Below, one piece after another: positions 2,724-33,999 of a stretch of DNA of 64,000 nucleotides. Source of the DNA: Kalmusia sp. IMI 367209 (taxonomy: Eukaryota > Ascomycota > Dothideomycetes > Pleosporales > Didymosphaeriaceae); the NCBI GenBank assembly GCA_027946365.1, contig JAPEUQ010000008.1:248001-312000 (forward strand), given 5' to 3'. Position numbers and translations under genes: made by a program. The notes under the pieces are model-generated. The model had not been told where the DNA came from. It saw only the letters and a program-made list of their open reading frames with translations, and searched no databases. The number at the start of each line of letters is the position of its first letter. The stretch's first letter is position 1.

Positions 2724-3376
2724 CTACTCGCTGTTCGCTTGAATCCACGCCTGGCAAGGTTCATCCTCAATCAAGCAGCAAGCCAACTCACTCTCATCCA
2801 CAACTTGCCCATCACGCTTCTCAAACACATCCCTCTTGATAGACACCGCATTCTGCTCAATGACCTTCTGGCAACGGGCATCCGAGATGAGGCAGCACGC
2901 AAGTTCGCTCTCATCAACAAGCTGTCCATCGCGCTTCTCAGACTTGGGTAAGACGCTGCTAACGTAGAGAACAGCCGGGTCGGCCTCAGCGTTACGCTTC
3001 TCAGACTTGGGGAGAACAGAGGAAACGTATAGCACCGCAGGGTCCGCCTCACGCTTTTCAGATTTGGGGAGGACGCTGCTGACATAGAGGACAGCTGGGT
3101 CGGCCTCACGTTTCTCGGATTTGGGAAGAACGCTGGTTACGTAGAGGACAGCTGGGTTGGCTTCGGCATCGCGCTTCTCCGACTTCGGGAGAACGCTGCT
3201 AACGTATTGAACGGCCGGGTTGGCTTCAGCCTCGCGCTCAGCAACTGATTTGGCACGTCAACATCGAGCTTTGCCGCGAGATCAATGTGGTATGCGAGCA
3301 ACTTACTTCCATTGGGAAGAGCAGAAGTAAAAGCCACGAGAGTAGCAAGGCTGACGATGATCTGCTGGCCGTACAT
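2724..3376 (-). CDS. Repeat-containing, Kex2-processed secreted peptide precursor (dikaritin-like RiPP candidate)
   Basis: Exons 3376-3307 and 3244-2724 flank a 62 nt intron (GTAAGT donor, CAG acceptor) and encode 196 residues. Residues 1-19 form a signal peptide (MYGQQIIVSLATLVAFTSA). Five tandem cassettes follow at residues 28-48, 49-69, 70-88, 89-107 and 108-128, with consensus EADPAVLYVSSVLPKSEKR; the first has Q for L before Tyr and the second has T for the first S. Each ends in a Lys-Arg kexin site, and a Glu-Ala or Asp-Ala-Glu-Ala spacer precedes each core. Two further cassettes share DGQxVDESELACCLI (residues 129-161 and 168-196), each with three Cys. Known family logic: fungal dikaritin precursors (UstA, PhomA, AprA types) have a signal peptide, repeated Tyr-containing cores and KR sites, and sit beside UstYa oxidases; two HxxHC proteins lie just downstream here. 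The product is inferred. A mating-pheromone-like precursor is the main alternative, though no usual alpha-factor motif is seen. Confidence 0.85.
2727..2930 (-). repeat. Two Cys-containing C-terminal cassettes of the precursor
   Basis: Copies at 2930-2832 and 2813-2727 share DGQ(L/V)VDESELACCLI followed by a third Cys (DARCQ, DEPCQ). They are separated by a six-residue piece, DVFEKR, itself bounded by Lys-Arg. They are unrelated in sequence to the five Tyr cassettes. Confidence 0.9.
2931..3233 (-). repeat. Five tandem Tyr-core cassettes of the precursor
   Basis: Units lie at 3233-3171, 3170-3108, 3107-3051, 3050-2994 and 2993-2931, 57 or 63 nt each. The third and fourth encode identical 19-residue peptides although 12 of 19 codons differ, all synonymously. 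The unit length varies only by a two-residue (N/D)A addition to the spacer. Confidence 0.95.
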
Positions 3377-4447
3377 ACTGATCGAAGTTTGGGTTGAAAC
3401 CGTTAATCGGGATTGTGAGGAACTTCTGAAAGGTGGATGGAGTTTGAATCTGGGGATTCTCTATTTATATAGGCGGCTCAGTCAGTCTGTCTTCTTTTCG
3501 CTGAGTACTTCGGACATCCGTGCGCCGTGAGGTGGTCCAGTGATGATCCCTATCCCCTATTCACCCATATCGCGCTTCCTGCCAAGTAAAACTTTCCAAC
3601 CGAATTTTGCGTCTCGGTTGTGACAAGTTGGCATTCCTGTCATCTTTACGGCTGCCTAGCGTACTGTTGGATAACTCTATTCTCGTGGCCCATGGTCAAA
3701 CGTGAATCAGCATCAGTGGCACTACCTAGATGATGCGACTCGCTGCTAGTCAGACGCAAGCTACATCATTAATATATTAAATCGTATTCAATACGACTCT
3801 ATCTGACACATAGTATTAGTGTGGGTTTTGAGACATTTATTAGCCTGTTGCGCAAGTCGCTGATCTTGTTCTGAACATGTGCACTAAACGTATACTGCCA
3901 ATCCACTTATCTACCGGTCTACACAACGCTTTGCGCGCTTGCCGAACTAGCAACCCAGCCCCACATTGAGGATTGCGGGGCGATTAAGCCTTGTAAACTT
4001 GTAACCTTATACCCGGTAAGCAATTCCTGCATCCTGCGATCCTCGCGATATCTAGACCGAGTGATCGGGACGCCTGGGTAATCCTAGACATGTATATCAA
4101 TCTCAAAGCCAACATAACTTCGCTTACATCGTAAGAGGACTAGGCCTACGATACCAATCCCTTTTGGGCACAAGGTCGTGAGGTTTTAAATAAGTATTAG
4201 CGAGAGGAGATATAGGTTTTGAGTAATATTTTGCGGTAGCGAAATGTGTGATCAACAAGGGAAGCATTAGGTGCATTAGTGCGACGTTGTCATTGTGTTT
4301 TGCTTATCGCGGACTACTGCCTACTAGAGTATGCCTCCAACAGAAGAGAACATGTCAATTGAATTTCCTGCTATCAGTGAGGGCACTTGTACAGTTAGAC
4401 ACTTGTTCTCACCTCTCCGCTTTTCTTTCTCAAATCTGTCGCTCAAA
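3377..4447. promoter_or_regulatory. Divergent intergenic region between precursor and UstYa-type gene
   Basis: About 1.07 kb separates two genes reading away from each other. It holds the precursor TATA box and otherwise AT-rich sequence without a supported gene. A shared bidirectional promoter would allow co-expression of precursor and oxidase; this is inferred from layout only. Confidence 0.5.
3461..3471 (-). promoter_or_regulatory. TATA box of the peptide precursor
   Basis: The minus strand reads TATATAAATAG about 85-95 nt upstream of the precursor ATG at 3376, a normal fungal TATA position. It suggests a strongly inducible promoter. Confidence 0.6.
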
Positions 4448-5416
4448 ATGAGTTTCATTTCTGCTTGGAGGGAGAAACGGTACGATGCCCTACCTGATGA
4501 TGAATCCAGTGGTTCTCATTCACCATCACCGCCCTTCAGTCGAGCGGGAATTAATAATAGAGGCCTCCTTTATGGCTCAACGTCCCTTTGTCTCACACTC
4601 GTCATATTGAACATTACTCTGTTCTTCATGTCTCTTGTGATCCTCGCCATATCCACCAACGGTTCTGTCTGGGGAGAAACGAACCTTGCATGGAGAAACG
4701 CAAACGAATACTGTGAGTTTATCCAGGGCCATTCTAGACCCCTAGACACTAAACTGCCCTCTACAGCTCCCATAGTCGACTCCATACCCATCCCTCTCGC
4801 CACTCAAAAAATGAAAGGCACCCTGATTGACTACGCCCACGACATCTTCCGGCAGCCCCCCTCCCGCGAAGTAGATGCCGCCTGGGATGCACTCACAGCT
4901 CACGGCTTCACCTACGTCTCCGAGTCCGCCGCCCAAAAGATGGGCTGGGACCTCTCCGTCACGGCTCAGCTCCCCTCGCACCTCCTCCCTGAGACCGCTC
5001 AGGGGCCGCACTACTCGGGCGAAACAGATATGATCCACAAACTACATTGCCTCGACATGATCCGCAAAGACGTCTACTTCGACTACTACTGGCTGGAGAT
5101 GTATCCTAATCGCAACGTGTCGGAAAGGCATCGCATACACAGCAGCCATTGCTTATATATTATATTGCAAGCGTTGATGTGCGATGCAAATACGGATCTC
5201 ATTCCGCATGTGTACTTGGAAGATTATGCGTGGCCAGTACCTGATTTCGAGATCAAGCGGAAGTGTGGGAATTTCGAGGGCGTGAAGGAGTGGCAGCAAG
5301 CGCATGATATCCCGCTCAATGAATCGACTACGAAGGCACTGGAGAAGAAGCCAGGGCAGAAGTCGCGGCCGATAACTGATGAGTTTAGACGGTTATTCGA
5401 GGTAGATGAGCCGTAG
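4448..5416 (+). CDS. UstYa-family (DUF3328) membrane oxidase
   Basis: A single exon of 322 residues. I chose the ATG at 4448 because its context (AAAATG) is good and the protein then starts like family members: a short cytosolic tail with RYDALPDDE, then one transmembrane helix at about 43-69. An in-frame ATG at 4331 would add 39 unconvincing residues. The luminal part carries the two diagnostic motifs, HKLHC (197-201) and HSSHC (231-235), the latter followed by MCDANTDLIP. In ustiloxin, phomopsin and cyclochlorotine pathways, UstYa proteins catalyse oxidative cyclisation or other oxidation of ribosomal peptides in the secretory route. Next to a KR-repeat precursor containing one Tyr per core, the likely substrate is that peptide; the exact reaction is inferred. 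The frame is intact and the length normal. Confidence 0.9.
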   Translation: MSFISAWREKRYDALPDDESSGSHSPSPPFSRAGINNRGLLYGSTSLCLTLVILNITLFFMSLVILAISTNGSVWGETNLAWRNANEYCEFIQGHSRPLDTKLPSTAPIVDSIPIPLATQKMKGTLIDYAHDIFRQPPSREVDAAWDALTAHGFTYVSESAAQKMGWDLSVTAQLPSHLLPETAQGPHYSGETDMIHKLHCLDMIRKDVYFDYYWLEMYPNRNVSERHRIHSSHCLYIILQALMCDANTDLIPHVYLEDYAWPVPDFEIKRKCGNFEGVKEWQQAHDIPLNESTTKALEKKPGQKSRPITDEFRRLFEVDEP

Positions 5417-6114
5417 ATGTGGTTACTTCCTGTGCGTACTGTACAAATAGAATCTCGTGTGTATTCCTTTGATATTCTACATACAGTCGTGTTTCCCAAG
5501 TTGTGCCATGCCGTAATTCTTGAACCATATTATTGTCCCATGCTACTCCTGGGACATACTAAGCACCAACTTCCTGATATCGGACCATCATGATAATTTT
5601 GCTCCCTCCGACTCATCCACCGACTCCGAGATCCTCTTCGATCCCTGTTCGTTCTGCATGAACCAGATTAAGTTCGTTGATCGTAGGGCTTGAACCAAGC
5701 GCTAGATCCTCCAGGATAAAGTGCGCCCGTGCACATTCCTTCTAGAATACGGGCTTACTCATTGAAGCAAGAGGTGGTCGCCTGGTGGTATAATCAATGC
5801 GATAGGTGCAGTAATTGGAGCAGAGTCGACTTAGTACAACAATGGTCGACTAATGCTCACACATCTATCTATGGCCGCATTAATACGAGATGCATCTGCC
5901 TCGCAGACTACTACCTGTTGTATCTGCATACTCTTATTTTTGGGAGCGTGCCATTGCAGCCATTCCATCTGGTCGAAGACTGAGACAGTCTGTTTAGACA
6001 GGCCTGGATGACCTAGGAGCAGTGGGAGAAACAACGCCTGTCTTGCAAGCTTGGGAAAGCAGCCCCCTTTCTTTCTGCGACAGTCTATTCTTTGCGACGA
6101 TACCAGCTTTGAAT
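5417..6114. other. Intergenic within the peptide locus
   Basis: About 700 nt between the two HxxHC genes. It contains the 3' end of the first gene and the promoter of the second. Short frames here show no domain and I found no tRNA or repeat. Confidence 0.5.
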
Positions 6115-6877
6115 ATGGCCTCCCAATATCGAATGTGAGTACCTTCACAATACAAGATTCAAAGATTCTACATCTAAGCCCCACTACAGTTCCTCAGAAG
6201 GCTCCTCAAACGACAACCTCTTGCCCTTCGATGAGACCTCCGACGTTGAAAGCAACGACTGGAAAGCATTGGAAAAGCCTCGCGCAACCCAGCACCCCAA
6301 CAAAAGGCTGCGACTCCTCCGCATAGCCAAAGACATCGCCCTCTACCTACTCGCCTTCCTCGGCCTAGCCGCCTCAATCTCCTACTTCGCAGCCCAGCGC
6401 CATGCACCTCAGTACAACGCCACCTACGACGCCAACTTCACTGCCAGCTACTCAACTACACCGTGCAACTGCGGAACCTCCGTCACCGAAGCGCGTAACC
6501 TCGGCTGCATCTACGACGAGCTGTCCGCAGGCTGGTTCCCTCCACACTGCCTCGACACCCAACTCTCGGCCGAATTTGCATCGCTCGGAGACAATCCTGC
6601 GGGAGGGTGGCTCTACTGGGTGGACAAGAATCACACGCAATCGCTTACGTTGGAAGAAGCGAGTTTGTACGCAGACAAACAGCCCGAGAATTTCCACATG
6701 AGTCACGAGTGGCATGTGCAGCATTGTTTGTTTCTGTGGCTGAAGGAGCATCGGATGAAAGCGAGGGGGATGGTGTATGATCCGAGGAGCGACAGCGAGC
6801 ACCATATCAGGCATTGCATGCATATTCTTATGACACCAGCCAATGGGACGGCTGCGGGAGCAACTTTGATCGGGTAG
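6115..6877 (+). CDS. Second HxxHC membrane protein (UstYa-like, short type)
   Basis: Exons 6115-6134 and 6190-6877 with a 55 nt intron (GTGAGT/CAG) give 235 residues; without this 20 nt first exon the long frame has no upstream ATG. A basic stretch (KRLRLLR) precedes one transmembrane helix at about 53-74. The luminal domain has CNCG (99-102), SVTEARNLGCIYD, WFPPHC, and then HVQHC (182-186) and HIRHC (212-216). Two HxxHC motifs are the hallmark of the UstYa group, and this CxCG...GC(I/V)YD form is a recurrent fungal family of the same general plan. Known dikaritin clusters often contain two UstY proteins that act together, so a partnership with the 4448-5416 gene on the 2.7-3.4 kb precursor is the simplest reading. 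Family relation by motif is good; its catalytic role is inferred. Confidence 0.8.
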
Positions 6878-7102: not shown

Positions 7103-8931
7103 TTACAAAACATATTCGTCGAGACTCACGAACCCAGGTTCTGAAAAAATCAGATAAAAGTATTTCAGCGTCTCCGCCATCCAAAAGCTCTCGCATTCGT
7201 CAATCTTCGTTGTCCATTGCGCCTTGGAGACAGTTACGTCCTCGATGGCGGAGTGGGCGACTGCGGTTTCAGTAGCGTTGGTGATGGCGGTGAACATGCG
7301 CCATGCCGCATCTTGGAGGGCCGAGTCGCCAGTGATACGATAGAGGATGAAGACTGATTCGATGGCTTCCGGTCTGGAATCGTTAGCAAAACATACCGTA
7401 GGAGGGAGACTGGGAGCTTACCGCAGTAGAAACCTTTTATCTTCAATTTTGGTCATTCCAGGTAGCAGTCCGTCTTCCTTGATAATTTGAGGTGCGTCTC
7501 TGTGACTTCCGAGCACACGTTGCTGTAGAACGCCACGATGCCAACGCTCTGTACTCCAATCGCAATCAAGTGGGTCTTCGCATGGGACAACATGGAAGGT
7601 CTCAGGCATGATGTTTGTCGGTGTAGAATCGTAGGCCCAGATGCATCCATCGACTAGCTTTCGCGCAACATCAAGTTCGTCTGTCCGATTGAATATCTTA
7701 GCGCCGATGCCGACCATGCCACCAGCGAAGCAAGCGAGATGCTGTGCTTCAGGGTCGAGCTTGACCATACCCAAGCTGCTCCTATGGACGTTGCCGGAGA
7801 TAAGGATGTCTTGGTTTTGAGGGTTCAGCGGTCGGAAGAACATGTGCTTTTTGGCTGCATTGATGGCATGTTCGTAGAGGGCCCGGTACTGTGGTTCGCG
7901 CCCACCGAGAAGCATGTACTCTTTGGGGAAGTACTCGTACAATGAATCCGACATAGCACCGAATGTGAAAGCCTTGTATGCAGTCAGATCATTGTCAACT
8001 GGGCTGACAGTGATGGGAATGAGGCCAGGAATTGCAGTAGAGTTCTGTTGCTTTTCTACTAGATCGGATATTCTCTGTACAGCATCGTAGTATTTGCCAT
8101 CCCCGGTTAGCTGGGTGAGCCGTGTGAACTCCAAGCTCAGAGAGCCTATCTCGGCACTCAAAGCGCTCATCGGGGCTTCCTGATCTTCTTGAAGCGCACC
8201 GCTGCCATAGATTAGCTAACAGACAAGAAAAAGACAGAGAAGACGTACTTCACCCAATCCCAGCGTGTAATGGGCAAGCGGTTGGGAGTATCAAAGGCTC
8301 CGTACAGCATGTCTCCCAATTGCACTGCCTTATCGAGCAATACGCGGTGTTTTGCTTCGCTTAGGTCATATGCACTCAACAATCCTCCCAGGTATCGGAT
8401 GTTCGTTTCGAAGATGTTGAGCACAGGTTCTGCCGTAGTACTGAAATCGATGTTTCGTATCGCTCTAAGGGCTAGCTCGAAGTCATCTTCCAAGCCCATA
8501 ATCAACAGGGTATCTAACGAGTCGACCAAAGTGGCGCCACGGTTTCCAAATGAGTTCTTGTAACTCGCGGAAAGCGGAGTGACCTCATCTTGTAGCCATG
8601 CATGCTTTTTGTAACCTTTCCACGAATGCACAAATGCCTCCTTTACTGCTGCTTGTCTTTGTAGCCTCTCCTCCTTATTGTTTTCCGTCTCGACGCCGAA
8701 CTTGTGCTGGATACGTGGAATGGGTAACGGAGTCCCCTTTGGTAAGGGGATCATGGATGAAACGGGGTAACGCTGCGGAAGTTCTTTCCATTGGACCGGA
8801 CTAGTGATCAATGACGACGAAGTCTCGTTCAGAGGAAGAGGCTCTGTTCGTAAGGCGAGCTGCCGGTAAACTAGGAAAAGGAGGGCTGTCGTGGCACAGG
8901 CAATGGCGAAGCGGCGAAAAAAGAAACCCAT
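7103..8931 (-). CDS. Class I alpha-1,2-mannosidase (GH47)
   Basis: Exons 8931-8249, 8201-7422 and 7373-7103 (introns of 47 and 48 nt) encode 577 residues. It is a type II membrane protein: a short cytosolic tail MGFFFRR, a signal anchor at about 8-25, then a lumenal (alpha/alpha)7-barrel domain. Family sequences visible are GNRGATLVDSLDTLLIMGL, FGAMSDSLYEYFPKEY, HLACFAGGM and, in the last exon, PEAIES followed by ESFWMAETLKYFYL. GH47 enzymes trim terminal alpha-1,2-mannose from N-glycans in the ER or Golgi using calcium; the length and N-terminal anchor match. It lies tail-on to the peptide locus and divergently from MED20, and I see no reason to assign it to peptide biosynthesis. ER/Golgi trimming enzyme versus an ERAD mannosidase-like member cannot be settled here. 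Confidence 0.9.
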
Positions 8932-9400
8932 GGTGCGGGGTGTAGAAGTTCAATTGGATAATATCATTGAAATTGAATAGCTGGCAGCTCAAAGAGAGGT
9001 GCTGTCGAGTGAAAACGTCGTACTCAGGCAAATGCAAGTGAAACAAGGCGTGTAAACGATGATGTCACGCACGGAACAGAATTGTAGAAGAAGCCCTAAA
9101 TTGCAGAAGAATCAAGGTCCTCGAAGAGAAATTGAGAAGTTGACAGACAGATAAATGTAACGACAGTCAGGGAAAGAGCGAGGGGGGAATTGGTGAAAGA
9201 GGCTGTGAAGTGTCGGAGAAAGAAAGCTGGGGCTGCCTTGCTGTCTGTCATCCCCGAGGCGTGCATTATCGATAAGGCGACGGTGGAGGCGCGACGCGTC
9301 CCGCTAAAAGCTACCCCGGCCGCCGATCTTTTTGCGACCGTCAACACCGAGACATTCGCTTCACCTGGACACATCCAGTGCAGCTCACTTCGCCTTCAAC

Positions 9401-10241
9401 ATGAAGTATCACGGGTATATCCAGTCCTCGACTGTGTCCTGATAAAGCGCTTACCAACCGTTGCAGAATATACTACATTTCCAACCCCAGCGGGCAACTG
9501 CAAGCGTCCATCGACTTCGTGAAGGCCATCGTAGCTGGCATCGAGTCCAACTACCCGCGCGTCGACAAAGCGGGAGCCTGGGCGCTCAATCATCGCGTGC
9601 TTCGCGACGTCCCTCCCCATAGCGACGATGCACGACCCAACTACGCATATTCATACCAGCACCTCTTGCATGTAACCACCATCAGTGCAGATCGAACCTA
9701 CAACCTCATCCAGTCGCCCGCCCAGAGGCTTCAGAATGGCACCGGTGCCCAATCTAGCCTGACGCCACAAGCTTTGATAGCTTCGATTCCTCTGAGCCAA
9801 ACGGATGCTCACTTCGCCCTGCTCGTCAATCAGATGCCGCTCCTCTGGAGCCCACAGCGCTTGCTCGACGTCACAAATGCCAACATTTACCAGGCGGGCG
9901 AATTCTTCATTCATGTTGGCGAGCTGCGGTCTAGGCGACAAGGTCACGCGAGCAATACCAACAACTCGCCAGGTGTTGTGGTCTGCATATGTACACATGT
10001 TGGCAGCCCCGAGGCCGACATCGATGATTCATCCATCCCAGCCGACGAGTCACCAACTGACTTCGAATACGCCCAAGAATCGATACGCGATATCTGGAAC
10101 ACCATCAAGAAGGACCTAATTCTTGGACGATCCGAAGTCCGCGAATACATGCAGATTGCCCAGGATTTCGGTCGCGATGAAGAGCAGGCGCGTGAGGCAG
10201 TTGTGCGTGTGTGGTGCGAGGCATTGGGTCCGCGACCTTGA
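9401..10241 (+). CDS. MED20: Mediator complex subunit 20
   Basis: Exons 9401-9414 and 9467-10241 (52 nt intron, GTATAT/CAG) encode 262 residues. The N-terminus MKYHGIYYISN resembles the short beta-strand start of fungal Med20. The middle has QMPLLWSPQR followed by HVGELRSRRQG and PGVVVCI, a pattern I recognise from fungal Med20/TRF-type proteins, and the C-terminus has AQESIRDIWNTIKK...EVREYMQIAQDF. Med20 is a head-module subunit that contacts Med18 and helps RNA polymerase II initiation in the nucleus. The 14 nt first exon was chosen because it alone supplies an ATG in frame. The gene is divergent from the GH47 mannosidase, sharing about 470 nt of promoter DNA. Confidence 0.8.
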
Positions 10242-31815: not shown

Positions 31816-32388
31816 TCATACTACATTACTCTCTCCCTCCGCACATCCAACATCCGGGAACAAACACTCATCGCCCACTTGAATCACAAACCAGTAATGC
31901 TCAACAACCTGCTCATCCCCACTCGCATTACACCCCGTACTTTCGACCGCAGCCCCATCTTCTACTACTCCAAATCGCTCCCGCACTTGCAGCCCCCTGG
32001 TACTTGCTATGTCTACGGTTCCTTCAGCCGCTCGACACTTCGTGATCAGGCTGTTAGCCTCCATGAACAACGTCTGATCCGCTTCCTCAAAGTCGCGTGT
32101 AACTTGCAGCAAGCGCAGGTCGTACTGTGTAGACCAGATACGGTATATTTGGTTGTCGAAGGTGATGAGCTCGCCATCGTTATCGTAGGCGCCCGTGGTG
32201 CGAAGCCAATCTGGCACAGGGACGTACGGTTGGATACGCAGGGTGGGAATGGAAGGAATGGGAGTGTGATACGTAGAGGGGTCGTCTTGAGTCATGTTTT
32301 TGGAGGGCGGACTGGCGGGGGAGAGAAGAGGCGGGTGGTGGATGAAGTGGTGGATAACGAGGTAGAAGAATTCGGTCGAGGGGGCCAT
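31816..32388 (-). CDS. Hypothetical protein, paralogue of the next gene upstream
   Basis: A 190-residue single frame starting MAPSTEFFYLVIHHF. I recognise no domain family. Its second half aligns by eye with the product at 32701-33558: FDNQIYRIWST with INGQAYRILST, VTRDFEEADQTLFMEAN with VSKDIDTADRELFADAN, and VVEHYWFVIQVGDECLF with VWGHYWSVWKVSAERLF. The shared pieces look like a small globular domain of about 110 residues. No signal peptide or clear membrane helix is evident. The tandem arrangement on one strand, 312 nt apart, points to a local duplication. Function unknown. Confidence 0.6.
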   Translation of the reverse strand: MAPSTEFFYLVIHHFIHHPPLLSPASPPSKNMTQDDPSTYHTPIPSIPTLRIQPYVPVPDWLRTTGAYDNDGELITFDNQIYRIWSTQYDLRLLQVTRDFEEADQTLFMEANSLITKCRAAEGTVDIASTRGLQVRERFGVVEDGAAVESTGCNASGDEQVVEHYWFVIQVGDECLFPDVGCAEGESNVV

Positions 32389-32700
32389 ATTGATTGAGGC
32401 GAGAGACCGTTGAAGGGGAGGGATTCTTGATATGGAAGTATATGTTCTTATACACGAGACATATCGTTGTTGTAAGTTTCCATATTATATAGGGAACAAT
32501 CATTGTAGTTGTCTTTGCTATCAAATACAAATTGAAAAGACGCGTCCCTTGCAAACTCACTCTACGCAATTCCACATATCTGCATGCCAACCATAGACCA
32601 TTCTCGCTAAATCATTCCACATCTAACATCGACCACCATAGTATATGAGAAACGAGAATCCGCACTAACTCATCCACAACATTAGCATGACTAACACTCA
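32389..32700. other. Spacer between tandem paralogues
   Basis: About 310 nt serving as promoter of the downstream paralogue and 3' region of the other. Nothing else seen. Confidence 0.5.
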
Positions 32701-33207
32701 TTAGTTTTCCTCTCCCAGCATCCGCTGAAATAACCTCTCGGCAGAAACCTTCCAGACAGACCAATAATGCCCCCAAACCTCATCACCACTCCAATTCCCA
32801 CGTGCCACTGCAACGTCAAACGCAACACCAATCAAACCATCTCCGTCTTCATCTTCCGCCTGCTGGTGGCTCCGTGCGCTCCTGAACGTAATCTCGCCTC
32901 CCTCCTGTTCGCACTCTCTGTAGAAAATGTTCGCGTCAGCGAAGAGCTCCCGGTCTGCAGTGTCTATATCCTTTGATACGTGAACGATGTGTATAGTAGC
33001 GTTTGTGGAGAGGATGCGGTAGGCTTGGCCATTGATGTGGATTGTAGGTATGGATTCTATAGAAGATTTTTCCTTATGGTCGTCATTGCCATCATTGTTA
33101 TTGTTGCCGTTGTTGCCGTCATTGTCATCAATGTCGTCGTTGCCATTGTTATCTTCATCGCCGTTGTTTTCATTGTTGCCATCATTTTCATCATTGCTGT
33201 CGTTGTT

Positions 33208-33240
<33 letters not shown>

Positions 33241-33558
33241 ATTGCCGTTGCTGTTGTTGTCGTCGCCGTTGTTATTGTCATCATCGATGTCATCGTCGTC
33301 ATTATCATTGTAGAGCTCAATGAAAAGGTAGTCAAGAGGGTTAAAAGGGCCTTCGTTTGCGGAACAAATGTCTGTGGAAACGTTGGAAGGAGAAGTGGGA
33401 GTGTAAATGGGTGAGAGTAGGGTGGGTGTATGTGCGATGGGGAGAATATATCTATCTTCTAATAGATCTGTTGAAGGGTATCTCGGGGACGAAATTGTAG
33501 GACTTTTCTTGAGGGAGCGGCGGAGGCCCAGGTAGTAAGTACTGGACGATTGATTCAT
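32701..33558 (-). CDS. Hypothetical protein with Asp/Asn/Gly repeat tract, tandem paralogue
   Basis: A 285-residue single frame from MNQSSSTYYLGLRRSL. The N-terminal 80 residues are Ser/Pro-rich; residues of about 82-165 are almost only Asn, Asp and Gly; the C-terminal 115 residues are the domain shared with the 31816-32388 product (INGQAYRILSTN, ADRELFADANIFYRE, WGHYWSVWKV). The low-complexity tract lies where the other copy has a short Pro-rich linker, so it is an expansion inside one duplicate. Hydrophilic and acidic; no targeting signal is obvious. Function unknown. The frame stays open through a slippage-prone repeat, which argues that it is translated. Confidence 0.65.
33076..33312 (-). 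repeat. Trinucleotide/hexanucleotide repeat coding Asn-Asp-Gly tract
   Basis: On the plus strand it is a run of GTTGCC/GTTGTC/ATTGTC-like units, purest near 33210-33245 where GTTGCC repeats several times. All units are multiples of three, so length change would not break the frame. Confidence 0.9.
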
Positions 33559-33999
33559 CTTCGTTGTAGAGGCAAGTGAATTGATGAAAGGACGTGGATG
33601 TGCTCTGGGAAGGTTATACGAAGGTCATCGCGATATGCTTTATATTTGTGATAGACTTGTGTGATGTGCTGCAAGCTTTGTTTTCATTTTCCTTCTAAGT
33701 TTAAAAGCTCTTGCTACCTAGTGTGGTTTGGTGGAAGTGCTTGTACTGTGGGTCTTGAGCTAGGTTTTCTGTGTGTTGTAAAGGATTTACCCTGATACTA
33801 GAGCATCAAGATAAGAAATTTTGGTTCGCACAAGCTTGTAAAATGTATAAGAGAATGATTTAGCATGTAACATCGTCTTTTAATTCAATTTATTTATAGA
33901 AGCCGAAATACACCTATAGAGAGCCTGTAGCTGTGTAATGTATACTGTGCGGCAATTCGCTCGCAGAGAGCCCAATATGTAATGAGCCTTGGTGTGATC
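33559..33999. other. Intergenic AT-rich spacer
   Basis: AT-rich promoter side of the repeat-bearing paralogue and 3' side of the F-box gene. No feature recognised. Confidence 0.5.

Follow-up and report, generated by a model that had tools for sequence, protein, structure and literature searches.

What does the gene cluster at positions 2724-6877 of a 64,000-nucleotide stretch of the fungus Kalmusia sp. IMI 367209 (Pleosporales, Didymosphaeriaceae; positions 248001-312000 of contig JAPEUQ010000008.1; the whole stretch is referred to as the window) encode, and how might its product be made? The cluster consists of a gene for a Kex2-processed repeat precursor, an adjoining gene for a UstYa (DUF3328) protein and a gene for a further membrane protein with two HxxHC motifs, which we call U2. 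An initial annotation had proposed a dikaritin-type locus for a ribosomally synthesized and post-translationally modified peptide (RiPP). The presence of a Kex2-repeat precursor with a UstYa gene beside it agrees with this assignment, and we consider it probable that the three genes form a minimal locus of this type. Dikaritin membership is assigned here by gene content, and the chemistry of the product is predicted.

Precursor, UstYa and U2 genes

The precursor gene (2724-3376, reverse strand) codes for 196 residues in two exons (3307-3376 and 2724-3244) separated by a 62-nt intron with GT..AG borders (3306-3245). Exon 1 encodes an N-terminal hydrophobic segment (MYGQQIIVSLATLVAFTSALPNG) that appears signal-like by hydropathy alone. 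The five repeats (2931-3233, reverse strand) have the form (X-Ala/X-Pro)n + A-V-(L/Q)-Y-V-(S/T)-S-V-L-P-K-S-E-K-R, each with a single Tyr and a terminal KR. The initial description of a secreted precursor with five KR-bounded repeats, one Tyr in each, and the core LYVSSVLP stands in outline and needs two amendments. The first repeat is preceded by ER and only the others by KR, and LYVSSVLP is the core of copies 3-5, copy 1 reading QYVSSVLP and copy 2 LYVTSVLP. The C-terminus is formed by two Cys-containing units of the form VDESELACCLIxDxxCQ, both on the reverse strand: unit 1 (VDESELACCLISDARCQ, 2832-2930) lies between KR sites, and unit 2 (VDESELACCLIEDEPCQAWIQANSE, 2727-2813) follows a KR site and ends the protein.

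Comparison of the five repeats with each other (15 codons each, ten pairs) gave pS 0.70 and pN 0.08. For example, both core serines of copy 4 are encoded by TCN codons, and those of copies 1, 3 and 5 by AGC. This large excess of synonymous change means that the repeat peptide is under selection: the repeats have been kept as peptide by strong purifying selection while the DNA drifted. The only match to the precursor among public proteins was a relative, P0001; since none came from Kalmusia sp. IMI 367209 itself, the gene seems to lack annotation. P0001 is 57% identical over the full length; it carries both Cys units and four repeats (AVLY/AILY-TASVLPKAEKR), and an unspliced intron may be present in its N-terminal part. 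All nine repeat copies (five in the window and four in P0001) have an invariant Tyr and S-V-L-P. The repeats of the two fungi differ at 3 of 15 positions, including the two that immediately follow Tyr (V-S versus T-A). Neither the core strings, the Cys-unit strings nor the locus tag were matched in the literature, where the supplementary tables of both Kex2-repeat surveys were not covered. Viral contigs held no relative of P0001, and Rfam had no match in the window.

The UstYa gene (4448-5416, forward strand; exons 4448-4712 and 4767-5416, 54-nt intron 4713-4766) is divergent to the precursor gene. Its 304-residue product corresponds to N0V90_007745 of the same isolate (100% identity over 80% of the longer gene model) and is the best PF11807 match of the whole genome (E 7.4e-47), which bears out the DUF3328/UstYa neighbor with HKLHC and HSSHC reported at the outset. 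The two motifs occupy residues 179-183 and 213-217, and hydropathy indicates a single membrane-like segment. By family, the protein would be a binuclear-copper oxidase. DUF3328/UstYa proteins were described as such enzymes in 2025: according to the available text of that study, CctR is a membrane-anchored, lumenal, dimeric enzyme that binds two coppers per monomer, uses O2 and electrons, and requires the HxxHC residues for activity (PMC12435403). Its authors hypothesize an accessory protein that supplies electrons or Cu(I).

The U2 gene lies downstream (6115-6877, forward strand; exons 6115-6134 and 6190-6877, 55-nt intron 6135-6189) and codes for 235 residues, identical (100%) to N0V90_007746. 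The second HxxHC membrane protein of the initial annotation was confirmed here: U2 has one hydrophobic membrane-like segment by hydropathy, a CxCG...C...C array and then HxxHC motifs at 182 and 212.

A search for conserved synteny, as had been suggested, yielded relatives of both proteins, P0005 for UstYa (72% identity over 66% of the query) and P0018 for U2 (59% over 80%). P0001, P0005 and P0018 are each located on a contig of 7308 bases, which, judging by the equal size, would be one shared contig. A second fungus therefore very likely shares the linkage of all three genes, so that a lack of conserved linkage, named at the outset as part of what would refute the assignment, was not seen. Similarly, P0004 (UstYa) and P0017 (U2) are each on a contig of 213671 bases, again presumably the same one in view of its size; no precursor relative on it was found among the protein matches. 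In total, four U2 proteins were found, and three of them (own genome included) are accompanied by a UstYa on a contig of equal size. The fourth, from Paraphoma chrysanthemicola, had no such UstYa among the 13 UstYa matches.

The U2 family and its genomic distribution

To what family does U2 belong? Pfam gave no assignment at E<=1 or, subsequently, at E<=10, and the PF11807 cut-off was not reached. Of the U2 proteins found, P0015 and P0016 had no family at E<=10, and PF11807 scored P0017 with E 2.6 and P0018 with E 1.2. The U2 paralogue at locus L019 scored E 0.077 against PF11807, likewise short of the cut-off; owing to this weak score, an old common origin of U2 and UstYa is possible. NCBIfam, which is built for prokaryotes, had no match over its cut-off for nine U2-family proteins. 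The alignment of nine members contains 14 invariant columns, including both HxxHC motifs and CG...C...W...C.D. We also considered U2 as a diverged UstYa, an assignment that is not supported by sequence: the profile comparison gave a probability of 2.5% (a weak test, with 4 and 13 sequences), and the links between the two amount to the motif pair and the single sub-threshold score. No sequence relative was found in the PDB, the one match (E 0.86) being noise. The available text of PMC12871659, PMC12625553 and PMC13311259 contains nothing on U2-like proteins.

The genome comprises 42,784,582 bases in 30 contigs and has 54 UstYa loci; the genome paper, in its available text, lists cf. Kalmusia sp. 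367209 (30 contigs, 42.78 Mb) among endophytes (PMC10027605). Searching the 42.8-Mb genome with four different U2 members (E<=0.01) revealed about ten genes, grouped at six loci on contigs C29 (the window), C25, C6, C26, C4 and C27. All six have a UstYa match 0-2.5 kb from the span of the U2 genes and a Kex2-repeat precursor at 1.2-2.9 kb. Since 2.7% of the genome falls within 10 kb of a UstYa locus (54 in all), the chance of six out of six is ~4e-10 if the loci are independent. When the window locus, which was the starting point, is left out, the linkage holds at five of five loci (chance ~1.4e-8). Next to the U2-family genes of L017 there is also a 386-residue open frame (L017:2974-4131, reverse strand) with a long N-terminal part followed by two HxxHC motifs and no Pfam match over the cut-off.

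Eighteen of the 54 UstYa loci were read. Six are those with U2; the remaining twelve were picked by their order in the list and so are not a random sample. A Kex2-repeat precursor is present at 11 of them: at 6/6 loci with U2 and at 5/12 without (one-sided Fisher p 0.025; 5/5 versus 5/12 and p 0.041 without the window locus). The ten UstYa-adjoining precursors outside the window (L016, L017, L019, L020, L022, L023, L024, L030, L032 and L034) all have different cores, TNIYPGIKYLGDED, AVAVGPIIEEAGEGYES, APTVDEGFSKIIY, ARTPIGQFISIWYGEDGDD, VDQAFVNVAYFGLKE and TEFAPWYRATNILPASD among them. L023 and L032 are the weakest of the eleven (few or imperfect copies). Not counted as further precursors were a 318-residue frame in L018, which by eye has ankyrin-like repeat words, and frames in L020, L023, L030 and L034 that are antisense or overlapping.

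The window locus is thus one among many in a RiPP-rich genome, and this endophyte possibly has a broad RiPP repertoire. In a survey of 1461 fungal strains, 1758 Kex2-repeat proteins were counted whose 15 nearest genes include a DUF3328 gene (PMC7329392, available text). Against this number and the 11 precursors found here, the novelty originally claimed for the locus is overstated.

Processing ladder and alternative explanations

Does the precursor belong with dikaritins or with mating pheromones? The spacers that separate the core from the Arg in front of it consist purely of X-Ala/X-Pro dipeptides in all nine repeats of the two fungi (21/21 dipeptides). This Arg is part of KR in seven repeats; the exceptions are the first repeats of the two precursors, where it belongs to ER or PR. 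The ladder matches what would be expected for Ste13-type trimming. It was absent from the initial annotation, as were the conserved Cys units and the position of U2 outside the UstYa Pfam family. According to the available text of Le Marquer et al. 2019 (PMC6339444), the X-Ala/X-Pro signature is in general reserved for the alpha-pheromones of Ascomycota. In that of Umemura (PMC7329392), a DUF3328 gene is among the 15 nearest genes for 3 of 216 pheromone-group Kex2-repeat proteins and for none of 227 in the yeast alpha-factor group. The window precursor combines both features. Among the ten other UstYa-linked precursors, L024 has X-Pro at 3/3 sites read, L020, L023, L030, L032 and L034 start with X-Ala/X-Pro at some but not all sites, and L016, L017, L019 and L022 do so at none.

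It might be argued that the precursor gives rise to a linear alpha-pheromone-like signaling peptide, cut by Kex2, Kex1 and Ste13, and that the HxxHC genes are uninvolved neighbors. Indeed, alpha-pheromone precursors of ascomycetes share with the window precursor the signal-like segment, the Kex2 sites and the ladder in front of each copy. WCxxxGQxCW is one form of the two-Cys pheromone motif and does not cover all two-Cys pheromones. This exact pattern and the exact Pleosporales motif PYG[LM]P[IV]G, the two exact forms searched, have no match in the genome. A relaxed PYG pattern matched at chance level (36 times versus 31 in a reversed control), and the MF_alpha profile matched only below the cut-off. 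Since the mating pheromone of the fungus was not located by these patterns, a pheromone role is neither proved nor excluded by them. However, unlike alpha-pheromone precursors, the window precursor has a core with neither a PYG nor a two-Cys motif, carries C-terminal Cys units and has UstYa and U2 as neighbors, an arrangement that a second fungus very likely shares. Pfam detected no MF_alpha in it, DUF3328 genes are rare beside pheromone-type precursors in the survey cited above, and L024 demonstrates the ladder in another UstYa-linked precursor. We therefore regard an unmodified pheromone as unlikely.

The Cys units could, alternatively, be the true product or an effector, with the Tyr repeats as mere spacers. 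Between the window precursor and P0001, 18/20 and 22/25 residues of the two units are kept, versus 12/15 of the repeat (one sequence pair), and dibasic sites precede the units in both fungi even though the linker between them has changed. The units thus seem constrained, at least as much as the repeats. Yet the repeats are more numerous and under the strong purifying selection described above, with Tyr and S-V-L-P in every copy, whereas the two units of the window precursor diverge more from each other (pS 0.76, pN 0.23). Apart from the units themselves, a search of the genome for further copies returned a single chance match (E 2.2). This alternative appears very unlikely to us, and more probably the units either serve the enzymes as a duplicated segment for recognition or tethering or constitute a second peptide product. 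Least credible is a structural Kex2-repeat protein, of wall or repellent type, that is located beside UstYa by coincidence. Some fungal Kex2-repeat proteins do give fibril-forming peptides (PMC9769878, in its available text), but the Tyr peptides here are short and equipped with a processing ladder, and a coincidence is at odds with the likely conserved linkage and with precursors at 11/18 UstYa loci read.

We thus favor the dikaritin-type locus, against which several observations nevertheless weigh. A Ste13 ladder has been reported as typical of linear pheromones and not of dikaritins, and the change directly after Tyr between the two fungi disfavors a fixed crosslink at that place. No repeat precursor was found at 7 of the 18 UstYa loci read (two scans; introns could hide some), and hence UstYa alone is no proof of a RiPP. 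The low U2-UstYa profile probability belongs here as well, as do the poor AlphaFold2 models, with a mean pLDDT of 47.2 for U2 (4 sequences) and 51.7 for UstYa (13 sequences).

How does the locus compare with known systems? With the dikaritins ustiloxin, phomopsin and asperipin-2a it shares a secreted Kex2-repeat precursor, a Tyr in each core and adjoining UstYa-family gene(s) with two HxxHC motifs. Unlike them, it has the Ste13 ladder, the paired C-terminal Cys units and a partner outside PF11807, and no further tailoring gene is shown to belong to it. The window core differs from what we take to be the cores of ustiloxin, phomopsin, asperipin and victorin. Ustiloxin and phomopsin loci have a tyrosinase nearby (PMC7329392, available text), a feature that does not define the class; the nearest PF00264 match on contig C29 is ~158 kb away, as in a minimal locus. 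The Kex2-repeat motif DADAATXYV[A/V]D, printed in the available text of Le Marquer et al. (PMC6339444), is alike by eye (acidic-Ala-acidic-(Ala/Pro)-Ala-(Thr/Val)-x-Tyr-Val), but the SVLPKSEKR half of the window repeat has no counterpart in it. CctR and other DUF3328 binuclear copper enzymes are membrane proteins with HxxHC(x)nHxxHC (PMC12435403, available text); the window UstYa is a DUF3328 member and U2 has the motif pair. CctR, however, hydroxylates a non-ribosomal peptide, and U2 differs in its N-terminal half (CG...C...W...C.D), with no homology detected.

Proposed pathway, surroundings and implications

The precursor would enter the secretory pathway. In the ER/Golgi lumen, by analogy with CctR, the membrane-anchored UstYa would oxidize every repeat; this oxidation would most likely occur at the invariant Tyr or proceed through it, perhaps ahead of Kex2 cutting. 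The cyclized or oxidized YVSSV core proposed initially is accordingly a prediction and is not established. As the two residues after Tyr vary (V-S/T versus T-A), Ser or Val three or four positions further on would be better candidates if a Tyr crosslink forms. U2 would work with UstYa, most likely as a partner subunit or as a second oxidase. Kex2 would then cleave after KR, a Kex1-like enzyme would strip KR, and a Ste13-like dipeptidyl peptidase would remove the X-Ala/X-Pro ladder to leave about AVLYVSSVLPKSE or a shorter form. The computed linear [M+H]+ values are 1391.778 for AVLYVSSVLPKSE, 1405.794 for AVLYVTSVLPKSE and 1406.753 for AVQYVSSVLPKSE, and an oxidative crosslink or desaturation would change each of them by -2.016.

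A further-reaching idea, which we offer only tentatively, is that U2 founds a non-Pfam family of small two-HxxHC membrane copper proteins that are obligate partners of some RiPP UstYa oxidases, either within a mixed-subunit copper oxidase or as the electron or copper donor postulated by the CctR authors. Here the pair might modify a pheromone-style, Ste13-trimmed peptide into an oxidized signaling peptide, and the Cys units might serve to dock the precursor onto the enzymes.

The right-hand neighbors of the locus are of housekeeping type: matches to a GH47 mannosidase fall in 7418-8949, and a Med20-like gene lies at 9405-10241. On the left there is a C-terminal aquaporin (MIP) match (1938-2189; PF00230, E 2e-8), around which the frames look interrupted by eye. 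A major facilitator superfamily (MFS) transporter gene ~3 kb left of the precursor gene (C29:246033-247881, or L035:8033-9881) may or may not be part of the locus. A control scan of the whole window returned, besides the precursor, a single low-complexity Cys/His frame. Under another rule, window positions 9001-64000 together with L035 (65 kb without a UstYa match) gave two frames, one of them a long protein with repeated RNA-binding motifs, and on inspection no Kex2-repeat precursor. Farther away, a protein with a long Asn/Asp/Gly low-complexity tract (32701-33624, reverse strand) resembles by eye the product of a shorter frame (31816-32484), and the two are possible paralogues.

As a class, the locus is ordinary; it is unusual in its ladder, Cys units and partner family. 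It represents a compact system of one precursor, one UstYa and one partner, the interest of which lies in the U2 family and in the pheromone-like processing. The presence of the ladder in a precursor linked to UstYa is relevant to the hypothesis, put forward in the available text of PMC7329392, that linear peptides such as mating factors came first and modified cyclic ones later. U2, in turn, represents a separate HxxHC family that is easy to overlook and was found, in this genome, only where UstYa and a repeat precursor are present too. As this family lies outside Pfam, Pfam-based mining may undercount RiPP oxidases.

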